From Flavobacteriia bacterium (GTDB lineage: Bacteria; Bacteroidota; Bacteroidia; Flavobacteriales_D; Crocinitomicaceae): DNA of 64,000 nucleotides. Positions within the stretch are counted from its first letter, which is position 1; each line of letters opens with the position of its first letter. The stretch covers positions 62,001 to 126,000 of the forward strand of contig JACPDW010000010.1 of assembly GCA_016183815.1 (NCBI GenBank), in the 5' to 3' direction. The notes beneath the pieces are model-generated. The model searched no databases and was not told where the DNA came from. It worked only from the letters and a program-made list of their open reading frames with translations. Both the position numbers and the translations under genes were made by a program. This document shows, piece by piece, positions 975 through 59,923 of the stretch.

Positions 975-3128
975 TTATTTTTGAAAAATACTCCCTACCT
1001 CTTTGGTTATTTTCTGCAATGTTTCCATACCTTTTTGAAGTGCTTCAGAAGACATATCCTCATAATTTGAAAATAAATTTTCAGTAGCTTCCTGTGAAGG
1101 ATAAACTAATATATAATCGTTTTTATTATAAGCTTTATCCATTTTTAATAAAAAGTTTTCTGTTTCATTTGAGAACGAAACACTCCCTTTTCTTGCACTA
1201 CAAATCACTAGTAAATCGCTTTTATAAATTTTAATATTTTTTAAAAAAACCTCCTCTAAAGTGTTAATTAAATGGATATTCAATTCAATAGTTGTTTTCC
1301 TATTTTCTAAATACAATTTGATTTTTTCACTAACATAAGAATTGGCAACAATTTCTAAAGAAATATTCAGTTGAAGTGATAATCGGATAATTCTTTCCAA
1401 CCATGAAGTAAAACTATTTTCTAAATCTGAAAATGGTGGACAATAAAGAAAAATTCTTTTTTTCTCTATAAAAGGACGGTCAATTTTACAAAAAAAGATG
1501 GTTTTAGGACAAAATTCTAATAAGCGTTCTCTTTCATCACCAACAATTTTCATCAATAATTGGTCGTGTTTACTGTCATTAAGCACAACAATATCAGCAG
1601 CTAACTCTTTTGAAGTTCGTGCGATACCACTACTAATGTTATTATCTATTGTAGCAATTGGATTAACTTTAATTTCTCCTCCTGAATAATGTTTCACAAT
1701 TTCTTCCATGTGATTTCGGGAAGCACGTATCTTTTTTTCGGCTTCAATATCATTCTGAAGAACACTGACAACAGATATTGGATTTATTACCTTTTTGTCC
1801 GTTATTAATATTGAAAAGTCAATTAAATTTTCATTTCCTTTTAATTCATTTGTCGCCACAATAAGATGTTGACTTCTTTTAGAAGGAGAAGTCAATGCTT
1901 CATCATCAATGTTTTCTAATAAATATTTTCTTGAAGCATTTTCTGTGATTAAAGAGGCAATCATACAAGTTAAAAGAATTAAAATTACTGTTCCATTGAC
2001 TACATCTATGTCTAAAATTTTGTTTTCATAACCAACAAAAATAATCGCTAAAGTAGCTGCGGCATGAGCTGAACTTAATCCAAAAATAAGTTGTCTTTCT
2101 GAGGATTTTAAATGATAGATTTGTTGTGTGATAAATGCAGCAAACCATTTTGAAAAAAGTGCAAATGTTGTAAGTACTCCAGCAATGATAAGAGACCAAT
2201 AGCCATTAAATAGTATTTTAATATCAACGACCATACCCACTGAAATCAAAAAGAAGGGAATAAATAAAGCATTACCTATAAATTCAATTCGATTCATCAA
2301 TGGAGAAGAATGTGGAATCAGTCGATTTAAAGCCAATCCAGCCACAAAAGCCCCAATAATATGTTCCATTCCAGCCATTTCAGCTAAAAACGCAGAAAAG
2401 AAAATGACAGAAAGTATAAAAATATAATGTGCTGTTTTTTCACTTTCTAATCTACTTAAAAACCACCTTGATATTTTGGGAATAATCCAAAACATAATGA
2501 CTAAAAAAATGATAAATGAAGTAATTAATCTCAACCAAAAATCTTGACCTAATTCACCTTTAACGCTCGCAGTAATAATGGCTAATATGATTAAAACAGC
2601 GGTGTCTGTCAAAATTGTTCCACCAACAGAAATAGCAACTGGACTTTTTTTTGTTAAACCAAATTTACTTACAATTGGATAGGTAACTAAGGTATGCGTT
2701 GCAAACATCGAAGCAGTAAGTAAACTCGCCATTAAATCAAAATTTAAAATATAGTAACACAATGGAAATCCAAGAGAAAGAGGGATAATAAAAGTAAGAA
2801 ATCCAAAAGTGATGCTCTTATTACGATATTTTTTAAACTCGTTCATGTCTAATTCCAATCCAGCCATGAACATAATATACAATAATCCTATGGTAGAAAA
2901 CAATTTTACCGAGCCATCTGATTCTAAAAGTTTTTCACCAATTAAATTCATTCCTTTTGGTCCGATGATTACCCCTGAAATGATCAACCCAATGATTGCT
3001 GGAATTTTAAATTTCCTTAAAACTATTGGAGTCATTAAAATAATAAAAAGTAATAAAGAAAATATTAGTACCGGGTTTTTTAACGGTAAATGAAAAGAAT
3101 GAATAAGATGACTAAAAAAATAGTTCAT
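975..3128 (-). CDS. Cation:proton antiporter (CPA2/Kef-like) with C-terminal cytoplasmic universal-stress-like domain
   Basis: Multi-TM N-terminus with GLIISGVIIGPKGMNLIG and HIIGAFVAGLALNR motifs of Na+/H+ exchanger family; about 300 aa soluble C-terminus. Confidence 0.85.
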   Translation of the reverse strand: MNYFFSHLIHSFHLPLKNPVLIFSLLLFIILMTPIVLRKFKIPAIIGLIISGVIIGPKGMNLIGEKLLESDGSVKLFSTIGLLYIMFMAGLELDMNEFKKYRNKSITFGFLTFIIPLSLGFPLCYYILNFDLMASLLTASMFATHTLVTYPIVSKFGLTKKSPVAISVGGTILTDTAVLIILAIITASVKGELGQDFWLRLITSFIIFLVIMFWIIPKISRWFLSRLESEKTAHYIFILSVIFFSAFLAEMAGMEHIIGAFVAGLALNRLIPHSSPLMNRIEFIGNALFIPFFLISVGMVVDIKILFNGYWSLIIAGVLTTFALFSKWFAAFITQQIYHLKSSERQLIFGLSSAHAAATLAIIFVGYENKILDIDVVNGTVILILLTCMIASLITENASRKYLLENIDDEALTSPSKRSQHLIVATNELKGNENLIDFSILITDKKVINPISVVSVLQNDIEAEKKIRASRNHMEEIVKHYSGGEIKVNPIATIDNNISSGIARTSKELAADIVVLNDSKHDQLLMKIVGDERERLLEFCPKTIFFCKIDRPFIEKKRIFLYCPPFSDLENSFTSWLERIIRLSLQLNISLEIVANSYVSEKIKLYLENRKTTIELNIHLINTLEEVFLKNIKIYKSDLLVICSARKGSVSFSNETENFLLKMDKAYNKNDYILVYPSQEATENLFSNYEDMSSEALQKGMETLQKITKEVGSIFQK

Positions 3129-3415
3129 ATCTCTTGCAAAAGTACGCTTTTTTATGCTGTTGAAACAGAGTAAGTGATTTAATTTAGAGGAGCTCTAAAA
3201 ATTCAAATAGTCAAAATTTAAATAGCTTTACAAAGATAAAGAGAAATTATGAAACACATTAGCTTGTTTTAAAATGTTTAAATTTTCAAAAAGAACTACT
3301 ATTTTAATTTTTAACTACTATTGTTGATATTTAAAAAAGTTTGATTATTTTTGATAAGCAAAAATTTATTAAAACTTTTAGGTGAATTGTTTATTTGATT
3401 TTTATTATTTTATTT

Positions 3416-6827: not shown

Positions 6828-7826
6828 ATGAATAAAATAACAGCAGCAATTACAGGCGTTCAAGGATATGTACCAGAATACATTTTAACCAACGAGGAAC
6901 TATCTAAAATGGTTGATACTTCTGATGAATGGATAACCTCTCGTACTGGAATTTCTGAACGAAGAATAATGAAAAATGGGGCTTCTTCTGATATGGCTTG
7001 TAATGCAATCGATCAACTATTAAAGAAAAAAGGAATTGACCCTCTGGAAATTGAACTTGTTATTGTGGCTACTGTTACTCCTGACTTCCCTTTTCCAAGT
7101 ACATCAAACGTGATTTGTGATAAATTGGGAATGAAAAATGCCTGGGGATATGACATCATTGCTGCATGCTCTGGTTTTATTTTTGCTCTTCAAACAGGTG
7201 CAAAGTTTATTGAAACAGGTACTCATAAAAAAGTTATTGTAGTTGGAGTTGATAAGATGAGTTCTATTATTGACTATACTGATAGAACAACTTGTGTGAT
7301 TTTTGGCGATGGATGTGGTGCAGTTTTATTAGAACCAAATTCAGAAGGTCTAGGTATCATTGATGCTATTCTTCATAGTGATGGTAGTGGAAGAAAATAT
7401 CTAATTCAACCTGCCGGAGGATCTAACTTACCTGCTTCGCAAGAAACTGTTGACAATAGATTACATTATGTAAAACAGGAAGGGAAAACGGTGTATAAAT
7501 TTGCCGTAACGAATATGGCGGAGGTTTCCGCTCGAATTATGGAAAAAAACAATCTAAAAAGCGAAGATGTGGATTGGTTAGTTCCTCACCAAGCTAATCT
7601 TAGAATTATCGATGCTACAGCGGAACGTATGGGTTTGCCAAAAGAAAAAGTAATGATCAATATCCAAAAATACGGAAATACAACTGCTGGAACTTTACCT
7701 TTATGTCTTTGGGATTGGGAAAAACAATTAAAAAAAGGTGATAATATTATTTTATCTGCTTTTGGTGGAGGTTTTACATGGGGTGCTCTTTATTTGAAAT
7801 GGGCTTATGATACCCCAATAAATTAA
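6828..7826 (+). CDS. fabH: Beta-ketoacyl-ACP synthase III
   Basis: [36 protein letters not shown] motifs. Confidence 0.97.
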
Positions 7827-13926: not shown

Positions 13927-14931
13927 TTAAAAATGCCACACATCATGTTCAATGTTCCTAATTTCATCTGTAATTTTTTCAGATTCCATTAGCGCATCTA
14001 TACCAGTGCGATAAGACTCAATTTTTCGATCAAAAACATTGCTTTGTTTATAGATTGTACTATTAAATTGTCTTTTCCAAAACAAGTCATCAAAACTCAT
14101 CCATTGTGCATCGTTTTTGGTGTTATATACAAAATAATTGTTGAACACAAAACGACAATGAGGAAAATACAACCAAAACAACTCTTGTAAACCACTGATA
14201 TTTCCTTTGTTGTCTTGTTTATATACAACAGGACATATACCAATTATTCTAACGTCCATTTGAGATCTTTCTTTATCAAAAAACCAATCCTCTTTCACTC
14301 GATATTGAATTATCTCTTTTGAAGAAATCCATAAAGTATCTCTTGGAGGATAAATTGTTTGAAAAGATCCATCAGGCATTAAAATCACTGAATCTCCACT
14401 ACCATCAAAATTTGATAATGCAGTTTCACTTTGTGGACCTAAACGACCAAAAAATCGAAACACATCATTTTTGAATACCGAATCAGTATAATAATTTTTT
14501 CCAGGTTCTGGTATTACTGGATATTTAAATTGATCACCATCAAACAAACGTCCGATTGCATAAGGACATTCTGGATCAAACAATTTTAAATCTCCATTTA
14601 AAATGTGTGTACGAATTACTGTCCATAAAGACCATCTCGTTGCGTGTCTAATCCACACACCACCTGAGAAATCATCATGAGGCAGATAAATAGGATGGTT
14701 AATTTTTTCGCGCATATCTATTGTTCGCCACACACGTTTACTCCAAATAACGTCCGCCTCTCTTACAAATTCATAAGGAATTAAACGTTTTGTTGGAATG
14801 TGTTCCTGAATATAAATACCATCAACTATATTTTCTGACGGTACATTTATTGGCCCTCCATTGATTTCTGGCTGAGCCATATAAACCAAAGAACTGACTA
14901 AAAATACTGCACTTACAATTAACTTTTTCAT
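13927..14931 (-). CDS. gldN: Gliding motility / type IX secretion protein GldN
   Basis: Position after gldM; conserved IYIQEHIPTKRLIPYEFVREADVIWSKRVWRTIDMREKINHP; signal peptide from ATG at 14931 (ORF track start 14970 is an extension). Confidence 0.93.
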   Translation of the reverse strand: MKKLIVSAVFLVSSLVYMAQPEINGGPINVPSENIVDGIYIQEHIPTKRLIPYEFVREADVIWSKRVWRTIDMREKINHPIYLPHDDFSGGVWIRHATRWSLWTVIRTHILNGDLKLFDPECPYAIGRLFDGDQFKYPVIPEPGKNYYTDSVFKNDVFRFFGRLGPQSETALSNFDGSGDSVILMPDGSFQTIYPPRDTLWISSKEIIQYRVKEDWFFDKERSQMDVRIIGICPVVYKQDNKGNISGLQELFWLYFPHCRFVFNNYFVYNTKNDAQWMSFDDLFWKRQFNSTIYKQSNVFDRKIESYRTGIDALMESEKITDEIRNIEHDVWHF

Positions 14932-14951
14932 TTTTTCATCCTTTTTAAATG

Positions 14952-16694
14952 TTATAGTTTGACTACGCAAACTCCTTTTCTTCTCACCTTATCAGGACCG
15001 ATATAATCAACAATAAAGGAAACATTTGCACCTGGACGGGCTTGTTTTAATAAATTTTGAGCGGCAACATCAATTTGATTTCCACTACCTTTTACAGATC
15101 TACCCATAAATTCCATTTCCCAACTTAAAGTTGTAAATTGAACATTTAACGGAATTTCAGGTGGATATTTTGTAAATAATCGAGTTTCAAATTTACTTGC
15201 TGAACCTCCATTACCTGCTTGTCCAAAATAAACTTGTGCTGGAGGTAAATTCATTACTCTAAAAGTAAACGAACCTAAACTAACTGTTTTATTAGTTACG
15301 GTATTTTTACCACTAATAGTTATGGTGGCTGTTTTTCCACTTCCAGGGAAACCAATATAACCTTTAGCGACTTTTCTTAATTCAACATTACTTCCATTTA
15401 ATACAGTTTGGTCATAACCTGACGCTACACCTTCCACTTTATTTTCATAACCTCGATATAACACATTCATATCTGGTAAAGAAACAGTTCCTTCTGGTTT
15501 CATTATCTTAATTGGTAATGTCCATGGTTCTTTTTTCTCAACACCAGATTTGTTTCTTATTGCTACTGTTCCAGATAAAGTCATTTCACCAGACCCAGAA
15601 ACTTTTGTTTTAACAACTCCTTGTCCATTAGCAATGGTAATTGAACCACTATTAGAAGTAACCACAGGTTGATTATCAGAGTCATAAGCAGCCATCATTA
15701 CTTGAACTTCTACTTCATCACCATTGTTTGCAATCGGTGGACCATAAGCCAATGCCATAATTTTATTAAACGAATACTCACCAGTTGACACTTTGCCTTT
15801 TAAGTGGTTAACAGCAGTTGCTCTAGCAGACAAAATTTCTTGTTGCATTGCTGATAATGACGCAATTGCAGCAACTAAAGGAGAATGGTCAAATGTTTTT
15901 CCTATCCAATGTACTCCTTCCATGTCATGTACTTTTGATCTTTCTTGTTTAGAAAGTTCGGTGTAAACTTGCTCCAAAACGCCAACATCTTCAGGATTAA
16001 CCTTGTTTGATGCTATCATTTTTTGAACTTGTTTCACCAAATCAGCATTATCTTTATGATTATTTATATCCTTAGCTTTAAAAGACCATGGCTTATCACC
16101 ATCTTTATAGGTACCTAAACTTTCAGTTAAAAACTTACGGTATTTATTGTAGTTTTTCCATAAAGTTAAACCAGAACCAGTTGGATTTTTAATGTCTTCT
16201 CCAACTATTTCATGCATAGGTACATCATATTGGTCTTTAGCTTGAACAGCCATCAAGTTCATTCTAATAGGTAAAAGTGGTGAGTTCTTTTTGTCGTATT
16301 TTTTCCAAAGAATTACTTCCTCTTCTTTATCTTTATACTCTGATACGTTTTCTCCACTTTTTTCAAGAATATCTAATTTAATTTTATCAATTTCTTCAAC
16401 CATTTTTGCTGTTTCAGCATCAATTTTTGAAATCATATCCAAATAAAACTTAACTTTTTTCTTCTTTTGTTGACCTGCTTCATCTTTAGTAGCTGTTTCA
16501 AACTCTTCAACTAAAGCTTTTCTTGCCGCTTCACCACGTTCGTAGTGAGTAATGTTTGCTTTTTGAGTATTCTCCTCAATTGCAACAAATGCGTCCAAGA
16601 TAGATTTCGATACATTAAGAGCCAAAAGTGCGGTAAGTACTAAGTACATCATACCTATCATCTTCTGCCTTGGGGTTTCCTTTCCTCCTGCCAT
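14952..16694 (-). CDS. gldM: Gliding motility / type IX secretion protein GldM
   Basis: MAGGKETPRQKMIGMMYLVLTALLALNVSKSILDAF is diagnostic for GldM/PorM. Confidence 0.96.
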   Translation of the reverse strand: MAGGKETPRQKMIGMMYLVLTALLALNVSKSILDAFVAIEENTQKANITHYERGEAARKALVEEFETATKDEAGQQKKKKVKFYLDMISKIDAETAKMVEEIDKIKLDILEKSGENVSEYKDKEEEVILWKKYDKKNSPLLPIRMNLMAVQAKDQYDVPMHEIVGEDIKNPTGSGLTLWKNYNKYRKFLTESLGTYKDGDKPWSFKAKDINNHKDNADLVKQVQKMIASNKVNPEDVGVLEQVYTELSKQERSKVHDMEGVHWIGKTFDHSPLVAAIASLSAMQQEILSARATAVNHLKGKVSTGEYSFNKIMALAYGPPIANNGDEVEVQVMMAAYDSDNQPVVTSNSGSITIANGQGVVKTKVSGSGEMTLSGTVAIRNKSGVEKKEPWTLPIKIMKPEGTVSLPDMNVLYRGYENKVEGVASGYDQTVLNGSNVELRKVAKGYIGFPGSGKTATITISGKNTVTNKTVSLGSFTFRVMNLPPAQVYFGQAGNGGSASKFETRLFTKYPPEIPLNVQFTTLSWEMEFMGRSVKGSGNQIDVAAQNLLKQARPGANVSFIVDYIGPDKVRRKGVCVVKL

Positions 16695-16742
16695 TTCTTT
16701 TTACAATTTCTGGTTTGTTAATATTTAAATAATAGAAACTTC

Positions 16743-17549
16743 TTAGTCTCTAGAAATTGTCATAGCTTTTAACATGTTTCCATAAATACTGTTCAAATCA
16801 GTTAAATTTCTGGATAGCATTGCCATGTTGTCTTTGTATCGTTTAGTATCTTCAACTGAATCAGCTAAATTTTGCATCATATCCATTACTTGTGATTGGA
16901 ATCTTTCAGTAGCTTCTAAATGTGAAGAAGAACCTTTTAATTGTAATTCATATACATTATTTAAAGCAGATAAGTTTTGAGAAACTTTTTGCATTTGTTC
17001 TCCAAAAGATTCTCCTTCAGCAGCATCTGAAGTTAAACCAGAGATAGACAAAGAGGCTCTTTCATAAGCATCTGATAATGAGGACACCTTATCTGAAGCG
17101 GCTTGCAAACTGTTCACATAAGTATCTGTTGCTGCTGCAGCTCCTGCAACTTCATTAAGTTGACGAGCATTCTCTCCTAAAGTTCTCATCCCATCTCCTA
17201 ATCGTTCAATTAATTGACCATCAATTTTCGCTTCTTCAAGCATTTTATCAAGATGTTCTGAAATTCCTCCATCTTTTTTACGTGAACTTGAAATTGCATC
17301 ATGATCTAAGTCTTCACTATGACCTAATCCTAATTCAGGATATACCAACTCCCAATTGGGATCTTCATGAATTGGTTCAAATGCAGAAAAGATAAAGATT
17401 ATCGCTTCTGTACCTAATCCTAAAATTAACATGGGACTTGCACCTGGCCAGTGTTGAATTTTAAATAATGCCCCAACGATTACGACTGCTGCTCCAAACC
17501 CATATAGTTTGGCCATAAATTTTTTCCATCCTTTACTTCCTGGTTTCAT
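16743..17549 (-). CDS. gldL: Gliding motility / type IX secretion protein GldL
   Basis: Two N-terminal TM helices, YGFGAAVVIVGALFKIQHWPGA motif; between gldK and gldM. Confidence 0.95.
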   Translation of the reverse strand: MKPGSKGWKKFMAKLYGFGAAVVIVGALFKIQHWPGASPMLILGLGTEAIIFIFSAFEPIHEDPNWELVYPELGLGHSEDLDHDAISSSRKKDGGISEHLDKMLEEAKIDGQLIERLGDGMRTLGENARQLNEVAGAAAATDTYVNSLQAASDKVSSLSDAYERASLSISGLTSDAAEGESFGEQMQKVSQNLSALNNVYELQLKGSSSHLEATERFQSQVMDMMQNLADSVEDTKRYKDNMAMLSRNLTDLNSIYGNMLKAMTISRD

Positions 17550-17601
17550 AGAATTTGTTTTTTTAAGGTTTTTAAAAGTTTAATTAAACATTGATAAAGT
17601 T

Positions 17602-19155
17602 CTAGCGTAATTGTATATCGCTTTGAACATCTTCGCTACCCTCAGCAGAAAAGTTTTTACCTCCTCTACCGATGTGTGTCATCACATTTCGGAATCCTAT
17701 ATAGGATTTAGCAGTATCTTGATACTCGTATGTACGAGTAGAAGTTTGTAAATAATAACCAATATCTTTCCAAGAACCACCTCTTAAAACTTTACGTTTC
17801 ATTGATGGTGGATCCCAATCCATAGCATCGTATCTATACTCAGTATTTAAATCATTAGAAAATTCATACATTGACTCATCATATGCTGTTTCACACCATT
17901 CTGATACATTTCCTGCCATACAATATAAGCCGAAATCATTAGGATTGTAGGAAAATGCTTTTACAGTATGGAAACCTCCATCTTCAAAGTATCTACCTCT
18001 CATTGGTTTAAAATTTCCAAGAAAACAACCTGATTCATTTCTAATGTATGGCCCACCCCATGGATAAGCAGATAATGCTAAATCTCCTCTCGCTGCTCTT
18101 TCCCATTCAGCTTCAGAGGGTAATCTAAATTCATTTACATATAATTCCCCCATTGATGACAACCATGTGTTTAATAATTGTGAACGCCATATACTAAAAG
18201 CTTTAGCTTGAACCCAAGTAACACCTACTACTGGATAATTATCATATCCAGGATGCCAAAAATACATATTTGTCATTGGGTCATGAAAAGAATAAGTAAA
18301 ATCACGTACCCAACATAATGTGTCTGGGAAAACATTTACTTCTTCATTAATTATAAATCGTTCTCTATTTTCGTGACCTCTAATTGCATTATTTTGACCT
18401 TTTTTATTAAAGAACCCCATATCTTTATCCATACCTTGGTCTTCTTCTGTAAAAGGATGTTTTGGAGTATTCAACATTCGATGATTATCTGCAATTTTAT
18501 TTCCTTGATTGTCATAACCATTTGGTACAATGTCTATTCTACCTCTTCTAGCGGCTTCTTTTAAATCAATCCAAAAATATTTAAAATTTAATTTTCTTGT
18601 ATCAATTTCTCGTTTTTTATAGAAGCGTTCTGGTTGAGGATAATACATATCAGCTAATAATGGCATGATTTGCTCATTTTCTAAATCGTTATAATCAAAC
18701 TCTCTATCCCAATTTAAAGCAAATACAGCTCTATTTTCTGCTCTATTTGAAGGATCAAATTCAGCAACAGCCATTTCTGTTTCATTAAAATATTTTTCCT
18801 TATAATTTATATAGTCTTGTGCTTCTTCGTCGTCTTCTAAGCCAATATAAATTTTTTCACGAGCAATTGAATCTCTTACCCAAGTCACAAATTGGCGATA
18901 TTCATTATTAGTGATTTCTGTTTGATCCATATAATATGCTTGAACAGAAACCGTTTTTGCTCTAGTTTGATGCAAAAATGGAACATCTTGATCGTTTTCG
19001 CCCATTGTATATGAACCAGAGTTGATATAAACCATTCCTAATGGAATCTCAGGTTGAAATATGGGACGTCCTAAAACACCTGTCACATGACCAGTTTTAG
19101 ACTTACATGATACGAGTAAAACAGCAATTAGTCCTACAAAAAACAGTTTTTTCAT
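17602..19155 (-). CDS. gldK: Gliding motility / type IX secretion lipoprotein GldK (FGE-sulfatase domain)
   Basis: Lipobox LLVSC; SGSYTMGEND, RLPSEAEWERAARG, GNVSEWCE, VLRGGSW motifs; start of gldKLMN. Confidence 0.95.
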   Translation of the reverse strand: MKKLFFVGLIAVLLVSCKSKTGHVTGVLGRPIFQPEIPLGMVYINSGSYTMGENDQDVPFLHQTRAKTVSVQAYYMDQTEITNNEYRQFVTWVRDSIAREKIYIGLEDDEEAQDYINYKEKYFNETEMAVAEFDPSNRAENRAVFALNWDREFDYNDLENEQIMPLLADMYYPQPERFYKKREIDTRKLNFKYFWIDLKEAARRGRIDIVPNGYDNQGNKIADNHRMLNTPKHPFTEEDQGMDKDMGFFNKKGQNNAIRGHENRERFIINEEVNVFPDTLCWVRDFTYSFHDPMTNMYFWHPGYDNYPVVGVTWVQAKAFSIWRSQLLNTWLSSMGELYVNEFRLPSEAEWERAARGDLALSAYPWGGPYIRNESGCFLGNFKPMRGRYFEDGGFHTVKAFSYNPNDFGLYCMAGNVSEWCETAYDESMYEFSNDLNTEYRYDAMDWDPPSMKRKVLRGGSWKDIGYYLQTSTRTYEYQDTAKSYIGFRNVMTHIGRGGKNFSAEGSEDVQSDIQLR

Positions 19156-19265
19156 TTTTCCTATTTTTAAATTATCCGAATCTCACATTAACATTCTACA
19201 GGATCAATTTTGTGATATAACGGAAATTATGCAAAAATGGTTACATTTTCAATTATTATTTTATC

Positions 19266-20186
19266 CTACAACCAACGTGGGTGTTTTGATTTTTGTACCG
19301 GTGGTTCTGGAATTATATATCTATATTTCAAAAAGAACTCATGAGATCCTTTTGATATTGTTCTTAATTTATTCAAAGTTAAATCATAAGAATATCCTAT
19401 GCCAATTTTTCCGCTATCATAACCCAACATTACTCCTAATCCATCACTTAATCGGTAAGTAGCCCCAGCATATAAACTGTTATAAAAAAATCTTGCATTT
19501 AACTCAGTAGAGAATTTCACAAACTCTGTTCTCATTAACATTTGAATATCTATACGTTTAACCCCTTGATCATCTAAATTTAAACCTTTACCAACTAATA
19601 CAAATAAGTTTCTTGCATTATTGTAGTTTATATTTTTCAATTCAGCTCCACTTAAGTGAGTCATAGAAAGCCCTGCATAAAACTTATTCAATGTTTTATA
19701 GAACAAACCTAAGTTAACATCTAAATTAACACCTCCACCTGATGCAGGTAAAAGCGGGTCGGTATAATCACCTCCAGATGGAATCCAATCACCATTAAAT
19801 CCAACATTCACCATACCAAGACCCAGTCCGATACCCAATTCTCTACCACCTCCAAGCTGCCAAGGAAATGATACATTAAGAAGAACGTTATTTTGACGCA
19901 TGTGACCGATGGCATCGTGATAAAATGATAGACCCAAATTAACAGGTAAATACCTATTAACGTTTGCATCAACATTAAATAACACAGAATTGGGAGCTCC
20001 ATTAATCTTATCCCACTGATTACGATAAATAATCGTACCAGTTATTCCATCATTCATTCCAGTTGATCCTGGATTGATTGTCATCTTATCATAAATAAAA
20101 TGCGTCAACAATTTTTCCTGTTGTGCATTTATCATTTGACTTGAACAAGCCAAAATTGTAGTAATTGATAATAAAAATTTTTTCAT
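19266..20186 (-). CDS. PorP/SprF family type IX secretion outer membrane protein
   Basis: Signal peptide; HFIYDKMTINPGSTGMNDGITGTIIYRNQWDKINGAPNSVLFNVD typical PorP/SprF start; upstream of gldK. Confidence 0.93.
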   Translation of the reverse strand: MKKFLLSITTILACSSQMINAQQEKLLTHFIYDKMTINPGSTGMNDGITGTIIYRNQWDKINGAPNSVLFNVDANVNRYLPVNLGLSFYHDAIGHMRQNNVLLNVSFPWQLGGGRELGIGLGLGMVNVGFNGDWIPSGGDYTDPLLPASGGGVNLDVNLGLFYKTLNKFYAGLSMTHLSGAELKNINYNNARNLFVLVGKGLNLDDQGVKRIDIQMLMRTEFVKFSTELNARFFYNSLYAGATYRLSDGLGVMLGYDSGKIGIGYSYDLTLNKLRTISKGSHEFFLKYRYIIPEPPVQKSKHPRWL

Positions 20187-34674: not shown

Positions 34675-35532
34675 TTAATTGTTTAAATCTAAAAATTGAG
34701 CAGGATTAAGGGGTTTGCCTAAATATCTCACTTCATAATGCAAATGAGGGCCAGTTGATCTACCCGTTGACCCTAAATCGCCTATGATTTGATTTGTTTT
34801 AACTTTTTGACCTAAACGTACACGTATTTTAGATAAATGACCATAAAGGGTTTCGTATCCGTTTTTGTGTTTGATTACCACACATTGACCATAACCATAA
34901 TGATAGGAAGCAATAGTTATAACGCCAGATGCCGTGGCTTTAATTGCATCACCAATTTTACCTTCAAAATCAACGCCTGAATGAAACTCAGATCCTCTAC
35001 CACTAAAAGGATTTCTTCTGTATCCAAATCCAGATCCTCTTTTGTTTCGATGAGGATAACCTAAAGGTACATATTTTAAGTTTTTTAATAAACTACTTAG
35101 ATAAATATTATAGTATTTATAAGATTCAATTGCACTTAATTTTGTGTAGTCAATTCCACCCTGCTTAATTTGATTTTTAACGCCCCTTTTTGATAAATAT
35201 GACGAAATTTTTTCCAATTGTTTATCGATGTTATTGATATAACTTCGAGCAATTAAAGTATCTGTACTCATTGGAGCTAATACTTCATTTTTTAAATAAT
35301 CAAGCTCTGTTTGAGCCTGTTGATTTTCATTTGCTTTTCTATTTTGAATATACAATGATATAGCTAAAAAAACAATTAGAAGTAAAACAGAGGAAACATA
35401 ATATTTTAAACGTGAGAGATGCTTTGTGGCAATTGTGATAGACTTTGTCGCAGGATTATTTTTATTTACAATTACAATTGTACTGTATTCTTTTTTTTTT
35501 CGTTTTCTATTTATTGATTTATTTTTAAGCAC
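34675..35532 (-). CDS. M23 family metallopeptidase
   Basis: N-terminal TM; GSGFGYRRNPFSGRGSEFHSGVDFEGKIGDAIKATASG, VVIKHKNGYETLYGHLS, GSTGRSTGPHLHYEV; GTG start. Confidence 0.92.
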   Translation of the reverse strand: MLKNKSINRKRKKKEYSTIVIVNKNNPATKSITIATKHLSRLKYYVSSVLLLIVFLAISLYIQNRKANENQQAQTELDYLKNEVLAPMSTDTLIARSYINNIDKQLEKISSYLSKRGVKNQIKQGGIDYTKLSAIESYKYYNIYLSSLLKNLKYVPLGYPHRNKRGSGFGYRRNPFSGRGSEFHSGVDFEGKIGDAIKATASGVITIASYHYGYGQCVVIKHKNGYETLYGHLSKIRVRLGQKVKTNQIIGDLGSTGRSTGPHLHYEVRYLGKPLNPAQFLDLNN

Positions 35533-35750: not shown

Positions 35751-36143
35751 ATGAAAAAACTACTTTTATTTAGCATGTTGATATTAAGCACTTTGCTTTT
35801 TTCACAAGAAATAGATCAACGTTTGTTGGTAAAATACAATTCTTCCGAAATAAAAAAAATACAAAAAGATAATCCCAACGAATATCTATTTTTAATCAAT
35901 GCATTAAATAAAGGTATTTTTATAGGTGACATTCCTCAAGAAAAAAGTAAATCTATTGTTTTTGATGGAGAAATAACAGTTGACTTAACTCAAACCCATA
36001 CTTTTTTAACCCTTGGATTAGAAATAAAAGATAAATACCAATATTACAAAATTAAAGGTACAAATAAAATGCTGGGTGTTTTGCCTCGTATTGCTCTTGA
36101 TGAAAAATTGTTAAAAGAAAAAACTCAATCTACTAAAAAATGA
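35751..36143 (+). CDS. Small secreted protein of unknown function
   Basis: Signal peptide MKKLLLFSMLILSTLLFSQ; stop overlaps start of the following 984-aa T9SS cargo gene by 4 nt. Confidence 0.7.
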   Translation: MKKLLLFSMLILSTLLFSQEIDQRLLVKYNSSEIKKIQKDNPNEYLFLINALNKGIFIGDIPQEKSKSIVFDGEITVDLTQTHTFLTLGLEIKDKYQYYKIKGTNKMLGVLPRIALDEKLLKEKTQSTKK

Positions 36144-39094
36144 AAAAAATAATTTCTCTTTCTTTTGTATTATTATTAAATTTATATAATTCTATAAATG
36201 CTCAAGTAATTAATATTACAGATGCAGATCAAACTCCTTTAACTTGTGCAAATTTTAACGATGGTGCTGCTATAAATTTTGAAGACAATGGTGGTGCGGG
36301 AAATTATCCACCTTTAAGCGATGAAACCATTACACTTTGCCCTGATTTGCCTAATGGACCAAAAATTTCAGTTACTTTTGCAACCAATGCAGGTTTTTCC
36401 TTTGATGTTGATGCTAGCGATACCATTTATATTTTTGATGGAATAGATATAAATGCACCTTTACTTGGTAAACTAAACAACGGGATCAACCCAAATGGTG
36501 GAAGTTATTCTGCAAGTTTTATTAATAATCCAAGTGGGTGTCTAACAATACGATTTCTTACAGATGGAAGCAATGAAGGAACTGGATTTGGAGCAAATAT
36601 TTCATGTGGAAATCCTCCTCAACCATTTGAATTACATATTGAAGCTTATATTAATGGACAAGGAAACAACGCTTTAAATCCTGCAGACACTGGTTATGTT
36701 GATATTTGCCTAGGTGATTCTGTTTTATTAATAGCTAAACCTCTTTTTCCATATTCTTTAGAAAATAATGGATTTGGATACTCACAAAATATTGATAATG
36801 TTAACTTTTTTTGGGAAACTAGCAACAATTGGGTAGGTCCAAATAATGACAGCATCTGGTTTGTACCTCCACAAAGAAGTGGTTACTATATGTCTTTAGA
36901 AATAAGCGATGCTTTTCCTCAAACCTTTCAAATGCCTTGTAAAATTAGAGTAAGTCAACAGCCCATTTTTAGAACTACAGTACCTGAAGACACTATTATT
37001 TGCATCAATCAACAATTGATTATAACTGGAGGTGCAACTCCACAAGACACGGTTGGAGTTCAATTCCCTCCAGGAGCATTTTTATTAGGGGGAACAATAG
37101 CTGGTTTAACCTATTTACCAGATGGATCAGGACAAGAATATTCAACCACAATTAATATGGATGATTTTGACAGCACTTTGACTTTTCAAAATGTAAGTGA
37201 TTTACAAAACATTTGTTTAACTATGGAACACAGTTATCTTGGGGATCTTGAGGTATGGTTGACCTGTCCAAATGGAACAGCAGTTTCTTTAATTAATTCT
37301 TATGATCCAGGAAATATTCCAGGTGGTTTTGGTGGTGGTGGTACTTTTTTAGGTGATGCTGATGATAATGGGAATGGCACACCTGGTATTGGCTGGGAAT
37401 ATTGCTTTTCTGCTGTAAACAACACTTTAGGTACAATGGGAGATGAACTTGCTGCTGGAAATACACTTCCAACAACCATTTCAAATGGAACTGCTATGAA
37501 CCCAGATGGAGTATATTTACCTGATGGAAATTTCCAAGATTTAATTGGTTGTCCTCTAAACGGTGATTGGACGATACATGTTAGAGATAATTTGGGAGTT
37601 GATGATGGATATATTTTTGAATGGGGTTTGTATTTTAATTCCGCTTTATTTCCAGAAATGGAAACTTATGTGAATCATTTAGTTGATGAATATTGGATGC
37701 CTAATCCAACAATTATTTCAGGATTAACCGATACAATGATTGTTGTACAACCCAACACTTTTGGTGATCACTTTTATACTTATCAAGTAATTGACAATTA
37801 TGGTTGTGTTTATGATACTACAATTACAATAAACGTAACAGATTTTCCTGTTGTAGATCCTGTTCAATCACAAACTGTTTGTGCTGATCAAGGTTTTGAC
37901 CCAATTGATTTTACTTTTACTGACAATACAAATCTTGTTTGGGTAAATACTAATGAAGATATTGGATTAGCAGATTCAGGTTTTGTTGATATTCCAAGTT
38001 TTGTAGGTCAAAACCAGGGAAATCAAACAAGTAATGCTTTAATAACTGCATTTGCTTACATTGGGGGTTGTATTGGTCAACCAATAACTTTTAACCTCAC
38101 CGTTAATCCAAACCCAACTATTACAGCAAGTGCTGATGATTTCATCTGTGTAGGTGGTTCAACAAACATTTCGGCAAGTGGAGCTAATACTTATAATTGG
38201 GACAATGGATTAGGTGCTGGGGATAATCATGATGTATCTCCAATTGATACTACAACTTACACCGTAACTGGAACAGATAATAACGGTTGTGAGGGTACAG
38301 ATCAAGTAACAATTTATATTATTGACCCTCCAGTTGTTTTTGCTGGAAATGACACCACTATATGTTATGGAGAATCATTACTTCTTTATGGTACTGGAGC
38401 TGATAATTATGCTTGGACAAACGGCATATCAGATAGTGTTAGTTTTATTCCAAACATTGGGACTATTACTTATACAATGACAGGTTCAAGCTCAAACGGA
38501 TGCTCTTCTCAAGACGATGTGGTTGTTAATGTTTTAGCTCAACCAATTCCGATTATTACTCCTAGTTCAACTATGGGAACTCCACCTTTAAATGTAACTT
38601 TTACAAATACAAGCCAAAATGCATCTACTTATACTTGGGATTTTGGCAATGGAAGTAGTATTTTAACAACAACTAATTTAACTGAACAAAACGCAGAATA
38701 TTCAACAATAGATGTTTATACTGTTGTTTTTACAGCTGACAATGGGGTTTGTTCAAACGATACTACTTTTCAAATCATTGTTATAAATTTTGATCCAGTA
38801 GTTTTGCATATACCAAATATTTTTACTCCTGATGGAGATAAGAAAAACGATGTTTATACTATTGGAGTAGAAAATGGAGCTGAATTTGATGGACAAATTT
38901 TTAACCGTTGGGGTAATTTAATGTATGAAATAAAAGGATTGTACAATGAAAACGATCCAAATACTTATTGGGACGGAACAAAAGATGGGAAAGAATCTAC
39001 CGAAGGGACTTATTTTATTACATACGCTGTTAAAGGTCTTGATGGAAGTTCGTATGATGGTCACACTTATTTTCACCTACAAAGGAAAAAATAA
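36140..39094 (+). CDS. Large T9SS type B (gliding motility-associated C-terminal domain) cargo protein with proprotein-convertase P-like domain and PKD domain
   Basis: LTMEHSYLGDLEVWLTCPNGTAVSL...GDWTIHVRDNLGVDDGYIFEWGLYF P-domain; TSQNASTYTWDFGNGS PKD; C-term IPNIFTPDGDKKNDVYTIGVENGAEFDGQIFNRWGNLMYEI...YWDGTKDGKESTEGTYFITYAVKG. Confidence 0.88.
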   Translation: MKKIISLSFVLLLNLYNSINAQVINITDADQTPLTCANFNDGAAINFEDNGGAGNYPPLSDETITLCPDLPNGPKISVTFATNAGFSFDVDASDTIYIFDGIDINAPLLGKLNNGINPNGGSYSASFINNPSGCLTIRFLTDGSNEGTGFGANISCGNPPQPFELHIEAYINGQGNNALNPADTGYVDICLGDSVLLIAKPLFPYSLENNGFGYSQNIDNVNFFWETSNNWVGPNNDSIWFVPPQRSGYYMSLEISDAFPQTFQMPCKIRVSQQPIFRTTVPEDTIICINQQLIITGGATPQDTVGVQFPPGAFLLGGTIAGLTYLPDGSGQEYSTTINMDDFDSTLTFQNVSDLQNICLTMEHSYLGDLEVWLTCPNGTAVSLINSYDPGNIPGGFGGGGTFLGDADDNGNGTPGIGWEYCFSAVNNTLGTMGDELAAGNTLPTTISNGTAMNPDGVYLPDGNFQDLIGCPLNGDWTIHVRDNLGVDDGYIFEWGLYFNSALFPEMETYVNHLVDEYWMPNPTIISGLTDTMIVVQPNTFGDHFYTYQVIDNYGCVYDTTITINVTDFPVVDPVQSQTVCADQGFDPIDFTFTDNTNLVWVNTNEDIGLADSGFVDIPSFVGQNQGNQTSNALITAFAYIGGCIGQPITFNLTVNPNPTITASADDFICVGGSTNISASGANTYNWDNGLGAGDNHDVSPIDTTTYTVTGTDNNGCEGTDQVTIYIIDPPVVFAGNDTTICYGESLLLYGTGADNYAWTNGISDSVSFIPNIGTITYTMTGSSSNGCSSQDDVVVNVLAQPIPIITPSSTMGTPPLNVTFTNTSQNASTYTWDFGNGSSILTTTNLTEQNAEYSTIDVYTVVFTADNGVCSNDTTFQIIVINFDPVVLHIPNIFTPDGDKKNDVYTIGVENGAEFDGQIFNRWGNLMYEIKGLYNENDPNTYWDGTKDGKESTEGTYFITYAVKGLDGSSYDGHTYFHLQRKK

Positions 39095-39151: not shown

Positions 39152-39661
39152 TTAAAAAAATAAAGCTTTTAATTCAGTGGCATCAGAAGGTTTCATTTTA
39201 CCTGCTAAAATTAAACTAAGTTGCTTTCTTCTTAATGCACCTTCGTATCTTTCTTTTTCTTCGTTTGTTTCAGGGATTATTTCAGGAACTTGAATTGGAC
39301 CACCGTTTTGATCCACTGCAACAAAAGTATAAATGGCTTCGTTACATTTTCTTTTTTTACCATTTACAGGGTCTTCTACAAAAACATCAACAAACACTTC
39401 CATAGAAGAAGAAAAAGCCCTTGAAACTTTGGATTCTAGTGTGAGAATTGATGATTGTAAAATTGGTTCTTTAAAAGATACATTATTTACAGAAGCTGTT
39501 ACAACAACTCTCCTACAATGACGATGTGCTGAAACGCTTGCGATTACATCCATCCATGCTAAGAGCTGACCACCAAATAAATTACCTAATGTATTGGTAT
39601 CGTTTGGAAGAACAACTTTGGTTGTTATTGCTAATGTTTCAATTGCTTTTTTAGGTTTCAA
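39152..39661 (-). CDS. Acyl-CoA thioesterase (hotdog fold)
   Basis: LPNDTNTLGNLFGGQLLAWMDVIASVSAHRHCRRVVVTASVNNVSF. Confidence 0.92.
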   Translation of the reverse strand: MKPKKAIETLAITTKVVLPNDTNTLGNLFGGQLLAWMDVIASVSAHRHCRRVVVTASVNNVSFKEPILQSSILTLESKVSRAFSSSMEVFVDVFVEDPVNGKKRKCNEAIYTFVAVDQNGGPIQVPEIIPETNEEKERYEGALRRKQLSLILAGKMKPSDATELKALFF

Positions 39662-53863: not shown

Positions 53864-56800
53864 TTATTTATTAATCAAAGTGATATATCCATGATCTGAA
53901 ATTTTTGTGTCATTTATTGTAGATATTTCATACACATAAAAATAAGTGCCCTCTGAGCATTTTTTACCGTCAGAAGTACCATCCCAATAACTGTTTGGAT
54001 TGGAATAATCATAAGGTTCATTAATTTCTTTCATTAAATTACCCCAGCGATTAAAAATTTTAAATTTAATGTCCTTAACCTTCAAACCACAAAAGTCCAA
54101 ATAGAAAACATCGTTGATGTTATCGTTATTAGGTGTAAAGACATTTGTATTGCAATCTTTTACACTTTCATAAGACTGAATATAAATCGTCTGGAAAGAA
54201 GTATCTTGACAACCAGTTTGACTGTCTATTGCAACTAATCCTATTATATAATTATTCACTTGATTAAATTCAACTGTTTGTGAACTTAGATTGTCAATAA
54301 ACACATTATCTTGACCGTTGTTAAACATCCATATATAGTTTGTTGCATTTTGTGAGTTGTTATCAAAAGTCACAGGTGAATTGATCCATAAATCAGAATT
54401 TGAATTGACATTAAAACTAGAAGTAGGTGTTTCTAAAATACAGAAATAATCGTCATAAAGAAAATTTGACGAACAAAAGTTTGCATCTGTGACAGACAAT
54501 GACAAATCATAACAACCTTCATTTTCTAATAAAATTGTTGCTTGACAATCAGAGTATGTTATATTATTTATTGTCCATAAACAAGCATTATTGATATTGT
54601 CCGTGTTCAAATTTATTTGTATTGGTCCACAATTTGATAAAGGTTCAGTAAGTAAATTTACACTTGGGTTTGGCAATATAAAAACTGTAATACTTTGAGT
54701 ATCACCATGACAAATTCCGTAATATGGTGTAATAACATAAGTTACCTCTCCAATAGCATTTGTAATAGTTTGTAAATTTTGAGAAATTGAGCTTCCAAAA
54801 CCATCAGAAAAACCCATTGCATTTACACCAGATGCAGTCCAATGGTAAATTACATCTGTAGAATCACTAGTAAAAGTAATGTTAACCATTGAATTATTAC
54901 AAATAGAGTCGTCCTCAATTAAAATAGTAAATGGTATATTGCAAAGAGTATCTAATGAGCAGTCAATAATGTCAACATTTAATTCACTAATAGTTGAACA
55001 ACCATTGTCTAAATTAATAACATTTAATTCATAATTATTGGTTTGAGCAAAAACTGTAAGTAGTTCTGTGTTTAATCCATTAGGATTACTTAAGCCAAGA
55101 GATGGAGTCCAATATATTTGATAATTTCCTTGATTTGGAAGAACATTTGCATCGATATTAAAAGTGGAAAAATCCAAACAAACTACATATTCAGGTAAAA
55201 TAATAGTTGGAGAAAGCGAGTCGCTTACAGTAACATTTACTGCTTGACTTTTTGAACAACCCTCAGAAGAAAAGACAGATAAAGTGTATTCAATATCATC
55301 ATTGATACAAGCTAATGGATTAGAAACACTTGAATTATTCAATCCTAATGTAGGATACCACAAATAAGTATAATTTGGATTAGATTCTATTCCAATATTT
55401 AAACAAGAATTAGAACAAACATAAAAATTGTTCGTTTCATCAATTTGAACTTCATTTACGGTAATAGTTAATTCATCTGAAGCACTACAATTCCCAATAG
55501 AGTTAACAAGTGTATATTCAAAAACACCTGATGAAGTTGGTGTAAACAAAGGAGCTGGAGAATTTGGATCAGATATATTTGAACTAGGAATCCATGTAAA
55601 ATTCCCATTATTGTTTATATCTCCAATTGTAATATTTCCATCTTCTAAACACATTATTCTGTCAATTCCTGCATTTCCACTAGAAACAGTTGGCACTACA
55701 ACAAGTGTGTCAGTATAGATACAATTTCTATTATCACTAGCAGTAAGGTAAAAAATTGTAGTACTCATTACATTAGTTGAAGTGTTTAGTATTTGTTCAT
55801 TTGAAACAAAATTAGAGGGTGACCAACTATAAGTTTGATAGTTTAATTGAATACCCTCTGCTAAATTTACTGGACCATCTGAAGGACAATAAGTAATATC
55901 TGGTAATGAAAAGGGATAATTGGATTGTTCTACAATCATATCATCTTCTAAAGATATTCCACAATCTCCAATTAATTCAATGTGTAAATTATATAAAATT
56001 TGATCTTGTAAATGTTGAACATTTGGTTGAGCACAATTTGTACAACTTAATCCATCAGGTGGAGACCAGGAATAGACAAGTCCATTCATTGCAGGATTTC
56101 CAATTTGTAAACCATCATCACCTAAACAAATGTACTTGTCAGCTATAGGAATTAGCGTTGGAAATTGGTCAATATATACAGTTACTGTATCTTTAACTGA
56201 ACAACCTGCATTATTAGTAATAGTATTTATAAAGGTTGTTGTGTTTGTTAAAATTACTTCAGGTAATACAGAAGTATTTGAAGTTCCATTTTGCCATGGC
56301 GAATTAGAAGGTTGCCAAGAATTAGAATAATCAGAGGTTGAATTGTTTCCTAGTTGAATTATGGAATTACTACAAGCATACCAATCTTCTGATTCTGTTA
56401 TATCAACTGTCTCAACTGTCACTTTAGGGTAAGACTTAAAAGCACATCCTGTTAATGAATCTTTCACTTTAAGATAAAAATCGTATAGTCCAATATTTGA
56501 TGGAAAAAATAATGGGTCACTTTCATTAGAGTAAAAATTCCCATTTAATTTCCATAAATAAGAATAAGCTGGAATAAAAATATTTCCAATATAAATTTGT
56601 TGCCCCAAACAAATTGTTGTATCAACAACTGGAAATACAGGGATTTGCCAAGTTGGATTATTCACTTCAATGGAATCAATACAGTTAAATAAAGGGTCTA
56701 TTAAACTCGTAACAATTACCTTATAAAATAAATGTTCAGTTGTAAGCAATGTAACTGTTTGAGTATTGTAATTAGACAAACCAGTTTGAGGATACCAAGA

Positions 56801-59800
56801 GTAAATTAAATTTTCATTTTCCTCAGTTCCTGCTATTAAATTAACTTGCCCTGTGTCGAGCAAAGTACTTGGGCATTCAGCTTCAGCTTCTACTTGTATA
56901 TCACAAAATCCATGGCAATTTCCAATTAAACAATCTCTAACAGTTACTTGATCAGAGCAAGATACACCATTGTGAGTAACGGTTAATTCAAAAATTGAAT
57001 TTTCGCCAGGAGAATCAGAAACATTGGCATAGTTTTGGTTAGTTGGCCCAAGGAATGTTGCAGGACCTGAGATTTTAGTCCACTGATACGTTTCGTTTAT
57101 GTTGGGTGTTAAATCGGGATATCCAATTGTACAAGGACCACACAGATCTAATCCAGCTATGGCTTTTATAATAGAAATTTCAATTTCATCAATATATTCA
57201 CAACCATTTTTTTCTGCCACAAGGTATTTATTTACAGGATTGCTATTATTTTCGTTTAATATTTCCATAGATGGATATGAATAAAATGTAGTAGTAGAGG
57301 TATTATAACTGGATAGGTAAGTTGTTGAATGCCATTGATAATCAAATCCATTTTCAGATGGTGTACCAATAGTCGGGTTTGTTCCATAACAAATGGTCAG
57401 GTCTTGTCCAGCAAAATTTGAATCTGTAGGACCAGAATTAACTTGAATAAAAACTGTATCTAAAGTGGTGCAAAAGTCTCCATCTGAGTTTTGTAAACTT
57501 AAGATTAAGTAATAGCTTGTTTCTGTGGGAGGATTTGCATAGGTTTGAGAACATGTTGGACAAGATAAATTTTGTGGAGGAGTCCAAGAATAACTTACAT
57601 TGGGTATTCCTTGAATGGGTAGGTCGCCAATTAAAATTTCTTCTCCATTACACACCGATCTGTCATTTCCTGCTAATGCTTTAAAAACGTGTATTACAGC
57701 TTGGTCTTTCTTAATACAACCATTAGCATCAATAACTGTTAAAGTAACAATAGAGTTTTCATGTAAGTTAAAACTAGGGTTAGCGATACTTTCCAGATTA
57801 TTATCCCAATTATAAGTATAAGGTTCTGTGCCCCCTTGTGCTGTCGGATTGCCTCCAATTGTGATGGCATCATTTGGGCAAGTATAAAAATTATTTCCTG
57901 CATCAACAGTTGGTGCTACAAACTCATTTAGAATAATGGACGAAACATCACTAATACTATAGGTTAAAGTATCTCCACAAATTATATAATAAGTTATTCT
58001 TCTATAAAATTGGTCTTGGTTTTGTACTATGGGTAAATAATCTTTTAAATATGCACCAGCTACCCTGCTCCAAGGACCATTTGAATTATTTGCTTTCTCC
58101 CAATAATATTTTAAATAAGCTTTTTGGTCAATAGCTCCAATAATATTTTGATAAATAATTGGAATTAACTCGTTTTCAATCAAGAACTTGTCGCCTTTTA
58201 TTAATTCAGGTGTACTAAATGTACATAAATTTTGAACACTAGGTGATAAAGTGTCCGTTATATTTAAATTTAAATAATTATTAGTATCAATTGAAATTTT
58301 TGAATAATTTGCTATTTCAAAAATTAAATATGGATTTTGATTCGGAGTAGTAAAAATTTGATAATTACCAAATGACCAAAAACCTGAAAAATAAATATTG
58401 TTGTCTTTTACATATAAGTTTTCATGACTTAATATTGAAGTTGAATAATTGAGATTTCCATTTAGACAAAAGTTTAAATACATTGAAAAATAACTTGATG
58501 AATCAGGCATTAAAGTATTGTTGTTTGGAGGATAATTAAAATAATCATTTGAATATAAAATAGCTGCAATATGAATACCATAATTATTGACACTTAAATT
58601 ATCAATAGTACTATTTCCTGAATAGAAGTCATTGTTTGGATAAGTATTTAATAAAACAGTTAAAACTTGATTGGATAAAGAGATGTTCTGATTAGCTTCA
58701 ATTAACGACAGGGGAATTTTTTTAAAATAACCTAGTCCGTTTAAATTTTCATCCGTTATATCACCAGAATAATAAAGATGGTTGTCAAAAAAAGTAATAT
58801 TTTTTAAAAAAGATGATTCTAATTCAAAATCATCAATTTTAGATAAATAAGTATAATTGTTTGAGCTTAAATCTAAGTCTTGTTCTGATAAGACCAATAA
58901 AAAAGGGTCATAACCAGTTGTACTTGTAACACCTACACTTGTATTGAATGGAATTGATGAATTTATATTTAATAAAATATACACTTGATTATTTAAAAAA
59001 TCATAACTCTCAAAACTATTTGATGGAATTTCTGGCAATGAAAAAGAAGCATAAGATCCTAATAAATCTAATGAAGTCTGAGTGTCTATAGTAGATTTTT
59101 TAATTTTATATAAAAAGTATTCATTATTCAAATAATCATTGACTAAAAAATGAATATTACCTTCTTTAATTTTAACTTCTTTAACATAGTCTTGATAGTT
59201 GTTAAATGAAGAAAAATAACTTGAAAAAGATTCCGAATCATTTTGAAAATTCATATCATTATTAATACAACTTGCACTTATTTTTTGAATATAAATAGAT
59301 TTTATTCCCGAAAAAAAAGTGTTATTTGAAGTATAAAGATCTGTTAAAAAAGTTTCATAGACCAAATAAACATTTCCATTTTCAATATTCATACTAGTTA
59401 TTTTATTGGATGTTAGATTCCATCCATTTATTAAAACATGTGAGTTTTCATAAGATAGAAGATAGCTAATATAATCTATTGAATTACTATTATTTTCGAT
59501 ACTTGAAGCGGAAATAAAAAGCAGAAAGTTATTATTATTATTGTGTAAATTTAAATCATTACTTACATTTAATTGTAAACCCCCACCATACATTCCAGTT
59601 AAATAAAGATTGCCTTCACTTACAGTAAATTTAGTATTAATAATCGAAATAGTACTTTGAATAGGTGTTGAATTGTTTCCAACTAAATAATTTTGTTCAA
59701 AACGAATGTTTCCTATTGTATCTCTAATAGTTAAATTTAAAAATACTTCATCGACAGAATTGTGAAATGAAATTGTGTATAATTCTTTATTATAAAAAGT

Positions 59801-59923
59801 TGATTTTTTTTCCCAAGAATAAGTGTTTTCAAGAATTTTACTAACTTCTATAAAAGGTTTTTGAGCATTTAAATAAAAAGTTAAAATACAACAAACAATA
59901 AGAAATAATCTTTTCAGTATCAT
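53864..59923 (-). CDS. Giant (2019 aa) T9SS type B cargo protein with tandem Ig/PKD-like repeats
   Basis: Signal peptide; about 12 degenerate CxGxxxxIG...YxWxPxxGLS...GCxxxDxVxV repeats; C-term CNTNVFTPNNDNINDVFYLDFCGLKVKDIKFKIFNRWGNLMKEI...YWDGTSDGKKCSEGTYFYVYEI. Confidence 0.9.
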   Translation of the reverse strand: MILKRLFLIVCCILTFYLNAQKPFIEVSKILENTYSWEKKSTFYNKELYTISFHNSVDEVFLNLTIRDTIGNIRFEQNYLVGNNSTPIQSTISIINTKFTVSEGNLYLTGMYGGGLQLNVSNDLNLHNNNNNFLLFISASSIENNSNSIDYISYLLSYENSHVLINGWNLTSNKITSMNIENGNVYLVYETFLTDLYTSNNTFFSGIKSIYIQKISASCINNDMNFQNDSESFSSYFSSFNNYQDYVKEVKIKEGNIHFLVNDYLNNEYFLYKIKKSTIDTQTSLDLLGSYASFSLPEIPSNSFESYDFLNNQVYILLNINSSIPFNTSVGVTSTTGYDPFLLVLSEQDLDLSSNNYTYLSKIDDFELESSFLKNITFFDNHLYYSGDITDENLNGLGYFKKIPLSLIEANQNISLSNQVLTVLLNTYPNNDFYSGNSTIDNLSVNNYGIHIAAILYSNDYFNYPPNNNTLMPDSSSYFSMYLNFCLNGNLNYSTSILSHENLYVKDNNIYFSGFWSFGNYQIFTTPNQNPYLIFEIANYSKISIDTNNYLNLNITDTLSPSVQNLCTFSTPELIKGDKFLIENELIPIIYQNIIGAIDQKAYLKYYWEKANNSNGPWSRVAGAYLKDYLPIVQNQDQFYRRITYYIICGDTLTYSISDVSSIILNEFVAPTVDAGNNFYTCPNDAITIGGNPTAQGGTEPYTYNWDNNLESIANPSFNLHENSIVTLTVIDANGCIKKDQAVIHVFKALAGNDRSVCNGEEILIGDLPIQGIPNVSYSWTPPQNLSCPTCSQTYANPPTETSYYLILSLQNSDGDFCTTLDTVFIQVNSGPTDSNFAGQDLTICYGTNPTIGTPSENGFDYQWHSTTYLSSYNTSTTTFYSYPSMEILNENNSNPVNKYLVAEKNGCEYIDEIEISIIKAIAGLDLCGPCTIGYPDLTPNINETYQWTKISGPATFLGPTNQNYANVSDSPGENSIFELTVTHNGVSCSDQVTVRDCLIGNCHGFCDIQVEAEAECPSTLLDTGQVNLIAGTEENENLIYSWYPQTGLSNYNTQTVTLLTTEHLFYKVIVTSLIDPLFNCIDSIEVNNPTWQIPVFPVVDTTICLGQQIYIGNIFIPAYSYLWKLNGNFYSNESDPLFFPSNIGLYDFYLKVKDSLTGCAFKSYPKVTVETVDITESEDWYACSNSIIQLGNNSTSDYSNSWQPSNSPWQNGTSNTSVLPEVILTNTTTFINTITNNAGCSVKDTVTVYIDQFPTLIPIADKYICLGDDGLQIGNPAMNGLVYSWSPPDGLSCTNCAQPNVQHLQDQILYNLHIELIGDCGISLEDDMIVEQSNYPFSLPDITYCPSDGPVNLAEGIQLNYQTYSWSPSNFVSNEQILNTSTNVMSTTIFYLTASDNRNCIYTDTLVVVPTVSSGNAGIDRIMCLEDGNITIGDINNNGNFTWIPSSNISDPNSPAPLFTPTSSGVFEYTLVNSIGNCSASDELTITVNEVQIDETNNFYVCSNSCLNIGIESNPNYTYLWYPTLGLNNSSVSNPLACINDDIEYTLSVFSSEGCSKSQAVNVTVSDSLSPTIILPEYVVCLDFSTFNIDANVLPNQGNYQIYWTPSLGLSNPNGLNTELLTVFAQTNNYELNVINLDNGCSTISELNVDIIDCSLDTLCNIPFTILIEDDSICNNSMVNITFTSDSTDVIYHWTASGVNAMGFSDGFGSSISQNLQTITNAIGEVTYVITPYYGICHGDTQSITVFILPNPSVNLLTEPLSNCGPIQINLNTDNINNACLWTINNITYSDCQATILLENEGCYDLSLSVTDANFCSSNFLYDDYFCILETPTSSFNVNSNSDLWINSPVTFDNNSQNATNYIWMFNNGQDNVFIDNLSSQTVEFNQVNNYIIGLVAIDSQTGCQDTSFQTIYIQSYESVKDCNTNVFTPNNDNINDVFYLDFCGLKVKDIKFKIFNRWGNLMKEINEPYDYSNPNSYWDGTSDGKKCSEGTYFYVYEISTINDTKISDHGYITLINK

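Follow-up and report, generated by a model that had tools for sequence, protein, structure and literature searches.

A small secreted protein family encoded beside CUB-PKD-P-domain cargo of the T9SS in Bacteroidota

Results

We identified a two-gene unit on the forward strand (35751-39094) of the 64-kb stretch of DNA analysed here, hereafter the window. The first gene (35751-36143, +) encodes a 130-aa secreted protein, and the second (36140-39094, +) a 984-aa modular protein, its partner, for which domain searches, alignment and a structural model give the architecture CUB-PKD-P-domain-Ig/PKD-type-B sorting domain (CTD). The tetranucleotide ATGA at 36140-36143 (+) is common to both reading frames, as the partner gene starts inside the stop codon of the small gene. 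The original prediction, a 130-aa secreted protein sharing this ATGA with a 984-aa type-B cargo bearing a P-domain, described both reading frames exactly. Genes on the opposite strand flank the pair, one divergent (34675-35532) and one convergent (39152-39661), and the pair stands alone. Its relatives assign the window to the Crocinitomicaceae, and a scan with a close subset of the small-family alignment pointed to Brumimicrobium and related members of that family.

The absence of an adjacent PorP/SprF gene, also claimed originally, was borne out: the nearest in the window (19266-20186, -) belongs to a porP/sprF-gldK-gldL-gldM-gldN operon (13927-20186, -), which encodes the ring and motor of the T9SS and lies some 15 kb away from the pair. 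sprA is located elsewhere in the host genome (SprA match of 2450 bits). The host genome thus encodes a T9SS, with GldK, GldL, GldM, GldN and PorP/SprF in the window and SprA outside it. The genome (3.24 Mb) contains 27 type-B cargo genes, one of which has the small gene, and six PorP/SprF genes. Three of the latter lie next to a type-B gene. The other three are set apart from such genes, and one of these belongs to the window's gldKLMN operon; any of these non-adjacent genes could provide the shuttle for the 984-aa cargo. The window encodes another orphan type-B cargo, a 2019-aa protein (53864-59923, -; TIGR04131, 48.5 bits) that has no adjoining PorP/SprF gene.

The partner begins with a Sec signal peptide, MKKIISLSFVLLLNLYNSINAQ, called by inspection (residues 1-22; 36140-36205, +). 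A CUB-like domain follows at about residues 36-156 (36245-36607, +), with a profile match to the neuropilin-2 CUB domain (E 3e-8) and, for the AF2 model, a Foldseek match to the same domain at 2.2 A over 113 columns. A PKD-like domain at about residues 216-275 (36785-36964, +) matches the PKD of collagenase ColH (E 4e-11), and residues 360-387 (37217-37300, +) match the core of the P-domain (PF01483, E 1e-8), which is longer in full and was matched in 45 of 46 aligned partners. This N-terminal half is the conserved part of the protein (47% mean column identity in the partner alignment) and has many invariant cysteines. The C-terminal half is variable and includes a PKD domain (residues 806-881; 38555-38782, +; PF00801, E 8e-7) and the type-B sorting domain (residues 890-975; 38807-39064, +), which scores 37.4 bits against TIGR04131 (cut-off 35) and 51.7 bits against CHU_C, PF13585 (cut-off 27; E 1e-13). 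Given a sorting domain above the curated cut-off, a Sec signal and a T9SS in the genome, the partner is predicted to be a T9SS type-B cargo. No protease domain was recognisable in it.

The small protein carries a hydrophobic Sec-type signal peptide (residues 1-19; 35751-35807, +) that ends ...LLFSQ|EID, and Q19 is invariant across 63 homologues. An outer-membrane lipoprotein anchor was rejected as its identity, since the lipobox cysteine after the signal peptide is missing; a lipobox-like match occurs in just 2 of 100 homologues and not in the protein of the window. It was likewise rejected as a T9SS cargo in its own right, as it has no CTD of type A or B (no match to TIGR04183 or TIGR04131 at E<=1), and as a PorP/SprF shuttle, as it has no match to TIGR03519 or PF11751 and is a 130-aa mixed alpha/beta protein as opposed to a beta-barrel of about 300 aa. 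The mixed alpha/beta fold comes from a confident AF2 model (63 sequences; pLDDT 88.7, pTM 0.74). The most conserved part of the family is a C-terminal beta-hairpin, QYYKIKGTNKMLGV (residues 97-110; 36039-36080, +), in which Q97 and Y98 are present in at least 90% of sequences and the strands span residues 97-101 and 106-110 (block pLDDT 91-97). As a guess, this hairpin, with the pattern QY-KI-GT-K-L-V, may serve as the binding surface. Searches of Pfam, NCBIfam and the PDB gave no family for the small protein, and a PDB fold search with the model returned no solved relative (best E 1.1). Its conservation is confined to its own family, and we found no description of the family or of the gene pair in the open-licence literature. 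It represents a dedicated, previously undescribed protein family, present in at least a dozen families of Bacteroidota.

The small gene occurs in 109 of the 299 genomes of the order sample, almost always in single copy. At the 60 loci of this sample taken for neighbourhood reading, every small gene with a downstream gene (64/64) adjoins a large reading frame on the same strand, and the complete large reading frames end in a type-B CTD, the exception being L055, which stops early. Across the class (395 genomes), adjacency was read from the coordinates in the match tables, with thresholds of E<1e-10 for the small family and >540 bits for the partner. Here 28 of 29 small-family matches sit directly before a partner-profile match, compared with a chance of about 1% that a random host gene precedes a type-B cargo gene (an estimate based on about 2,900 genes); the adjacency exceeds chance. 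In the reverse search, which was blind to the small gene, the small protein accompanies 26 of 28 partners above 540 bits, encoded upstream in 25 cases and fused in one. A family lying mostly away from CTD genes, the outcome that the original prediction had named as counting against it, is not what these three sets of counts describe. Weak class-wide matches near E 1e-4 that extend over just the first 30-70 residues (L160, L161 and L163 were inspected) are signal-peptide matches and were discarded.

Our full set of adjacent pairs numbers 100 and spans at least a dozen families. Gaps have a median of 2 nt, with 25 nt or less in 95 pairs and exactly -4, the ATGA stop-start overlap seen in the window, in 24; this overlap is merely one of several spacings. 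Flanking genes, named by eye, differ between lineages (GAPDH, PEPCK, YchF, a HemK-like methyltransferase, transporters), indicating that the pair has been kept while its neighbourhood changed. On a tree of 116 partners, a minimum of just five changes accounts for the presence of the small gene. At L153 (2179-10133), L154 (2238-10132) and L159 (2451-7975) the small gene lies between two large T9SS cargo genes, and its product may be shared with the upstream one.

Duplication has involved both genes together. Two pairs lie in tandem at L032, L033, L081 and L082, and three genomes have a second, unlinked pair (L085/L086, L090/L091 and L140/L141); tandem or unlinked, the duplicates retain one small gene per partner. 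The paralogue group L086/L090/L141/L157 forms a single clade in the tree of the small proteins and in that of the partners. The two trees correlate at 0.79, a value expected from shared descent alone.

At one locus (L146, genome G479) a single reading frame of 1101-1136 aa joins the small protein to the partner. Its order is signal peptide, small domain, linker (...FVPSLLTQTSEEEYTAEELESIIAMGGGPLVV...), CUB domain and the remainder of the partner; the partner's signal peptide is missing at the junction, whereas the near relatives L142, L145 and L147 all have it. As the partner's own signal peptide is gone, the fusion is not simply a lost stop codon, and the small domain there belongs to the cargo. 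We found no second fusion in eight other genomes of the same family.

The pairing has exceptions. L203 represents a lineage in which a type-B partner has lost its small gene, at a location otherwise like L156, and L139 (genome G512; 6986-7378, -) keeps a small gene with no detected partner remnant; L204 was left out of this tally because of masked bases. These cases indicate that each gene can persist alone, and they would suit two proteins co-expressed for a common task without contact, the small protein acting, for example, in the periplasm on a related pathway. We consider this decidedly improbable, as a physical link is suggested by the close adjacency kept across at least a dozen families while the flanks change, by duplication pair by pair and by the fusion. 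Among distant homologues of the partner (300-540 bits) the small gene accompanies a part, and many type-B relatives of the partner are without it. In family f21 (L211, L212, L213, L214 and L215), partner-related CUB/P-domain type-B proteins, in tandem in some genomes, have no small gene and are preceded instead by a protein of 340-430 aa (MNKNTLDPFERR... or MKDSVNSLFQQRF...).

A paralogue of the partner in the host genome, L198 (G000:C13, 893 aa), shares 74% identity with residues 1-799 of the 984-aa protein and ends in a type-A CTD (TIGR04183, 29.4 bits; cut-off 23). Its gene (G000:C13:115500-121500, 560-3241, -) and that in the window (36140-39094) present a natural swap of sorting domains, type A versus type B, within one genome. 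No small gene adjoins L198, and the gene upstream of it lies on the opposite strand. L198 could be served in trans by the small protein of the window, and the lack of an adjacent small gene at L198 and L203 indicates that the small gene is not needed in cis everywhere.

Considered alone, L198 would suggest a type-B-specific role for the small protein. Diverged pairs from a second genus (g5) have the small gene before partners with a type-A CTD, namely L237 (31.3 bits) and L242, a tandem array (27.3 and 30.8 bits). With signal peptides removed, profile comparison links the core small family to a remote set (98.7%, E 1.7e-16) and the remote set to the type-A set (98.6%, E 9e-16), and column-shuffled controls stay below 1%; the direct comparison of the core and type-A sets is weaker (74%), so the link is made in two steps. 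The presence of the small gene beside type-A partners in g5 indicates that the small protein follows the passenger and not the sorting signal: it tracks the CUB-PKD-P-domain passenger, whichever the CTD type.

These data bear on whether the small protein is an accessory of the type-B route, a shuttle helper or an anchor in the role that an adjacent PorP/SprF has elsewhere. The close partners that are complete and have a small gene, about 70 in number, all carry a type-B CTD, and in the host the type-A paralogue L198 has no small gene while its type-B sister does. A type-B-specific export factor was the reading that we first favoured because of L198, and we dropped it as the main one once type-A partners with a small gene were found. 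It also has to account for the 26 of 27 host type-B cargo genes and the many type-B relatives of the partner that have no small gene, and for the three host PorP/SprF genes away from type-B cargo that could serve instead. In F. johnsoniae, a type-B CTD fused to sfGFP is exported with a PorP/SprF shuttle, and a distant shuttle takes care of orphan type-B cargo (PMC12618676). As a CTD and the right shuttle suffice, and the shuttle may be distant, an adjacent extra helper is not required for export as such. We therefore regard an accessory of the type-B route as quite unlikely. The original prediction of a dedicated accessory is supported in part: adjacency, co-duplication and fusion indicate that this cargo family has a dedicated partner in the small protein. 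Its extension to type-B cargo as such, in place of PorP/SprF, is not supported, in view of the single small gene among 27 host type-B genes, the type-A partners L237 and L242 and the type-B relatives without one.

Discussion

A passenger-binding protein is the simplest account of the small protein. Specifically, we propose, with a probability of roughly 0.5, that it is a subunit dedicated to binding the CUB-PKD-P-domain passenger; it would probably leave with the cargo via the T9SS. The conserved gene pair, its co-duplication, one natural fusion and the independence from CTD type are directly established; binding, its site and co-export we infer. One short mRNA would yield both proteins, which would cross separately via Sec. 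In the periplasm the small protein would attach to the cargo's conserved N-terminal half, with the CUB domain or its vicinity as the probable site, and the complex would exit through the T9SS using the cargo's own CTD and shuttle. The small protein, having no CTD, would travel as a passenger and become part of the surface protein. That it crosses the outer membrane riding on its cognate cargo, two separately Sec-exported polypeptides folding together behind one sorting signal, we put forward tentatively.

Pairing, co-duplication and independence from CTD type fit equally well with a dedicated periplasmic chaperone, which would bind the N-terminal half of the cargo transiently, for solubility or for the folding of disulfide-rich domains, and be released before T9SS export. 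Such a role is consistent with the absence of a sorting signal from the small protein and with the many invariant cysteines of the partner's N-terminal half, and the order of the genes, small then cargo and overlapping or close, would let the helper be made first. However, at L146 the small domain stays joined to an exported cargo, a better fit to a stable subunit; a chaperone could be covalently attached, but it would need to be exported too. We prefer the stable subunit, since any export of the L146 cargo would necessarily take the fused small domain along, and regard a transient chaperone as rather unlikely.

Several observations weigh against a stable, co-exported subunit. The fusion was seen once, in a draft genome that is 83% complete, and the correlation between the trees is what shared descent alone predicts. 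L198 and L203 have no adjacent small gene, L139 has one without a partner, and distant partner homologues often have none. The fold of the small protein is also without a solved relative.

To our knowledge, the dedicated partners described so far for T9SS cargo have the sorting domain as their target. What is new here is a dedicated partner family tied instead to the passenger, and fusable to it. The sprB operon of F. johnsoniae, that of the type-B gliding adhesin, includes the accessory genes sprC and sprD, which resemble the small gene as accessory genes alongside type-B cargo; their products are larger, however, and are linked to SprB in Flavobacteriaceae that glide. SprB-SprF and other type-B cargo with PorP/SprF in F. 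johnsoniae (PMC12618676) are similar in that a cargo gene lies beside the gene of a dedicated helper. PorP/SprF proteins, however, are outer-membrane beta-barrels of about 300 aa that are encoded downstream and recognise the CTD (PMC12618676), whereas the small protein is a soluble mixed alpha/beta protein of 130 aa that is encoded upstream and follows the passenger with either a type-A or a type-B CTD; we found no sequence relation between the two in Pfam or NCBIfam. Anchored complexes of the PorE-PorP-PG1035 type (PMC12618676) likewise join type-B cargo with co-encoded partners, but PorE is an outer-membrane peptidoglycan-binding protein and the small protein has neither such a domain nor a lipobox. 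The small domain at the N-terminus of the L146 cargo recalls the N-terminal prodomains of gingipain-type T9SS proteases (PMC10202324), from which the small protein differs in being separate and having a signal peptide of its own in every genome but one; the partner, moreover, has a P-domain but no recognisable protease domain. Export of the complex as a whole would mean that the T9SS carries hetero-oligomers on one CTD, and that a class of T9SS-secreted proteins is missed by searches that use the CTD only.
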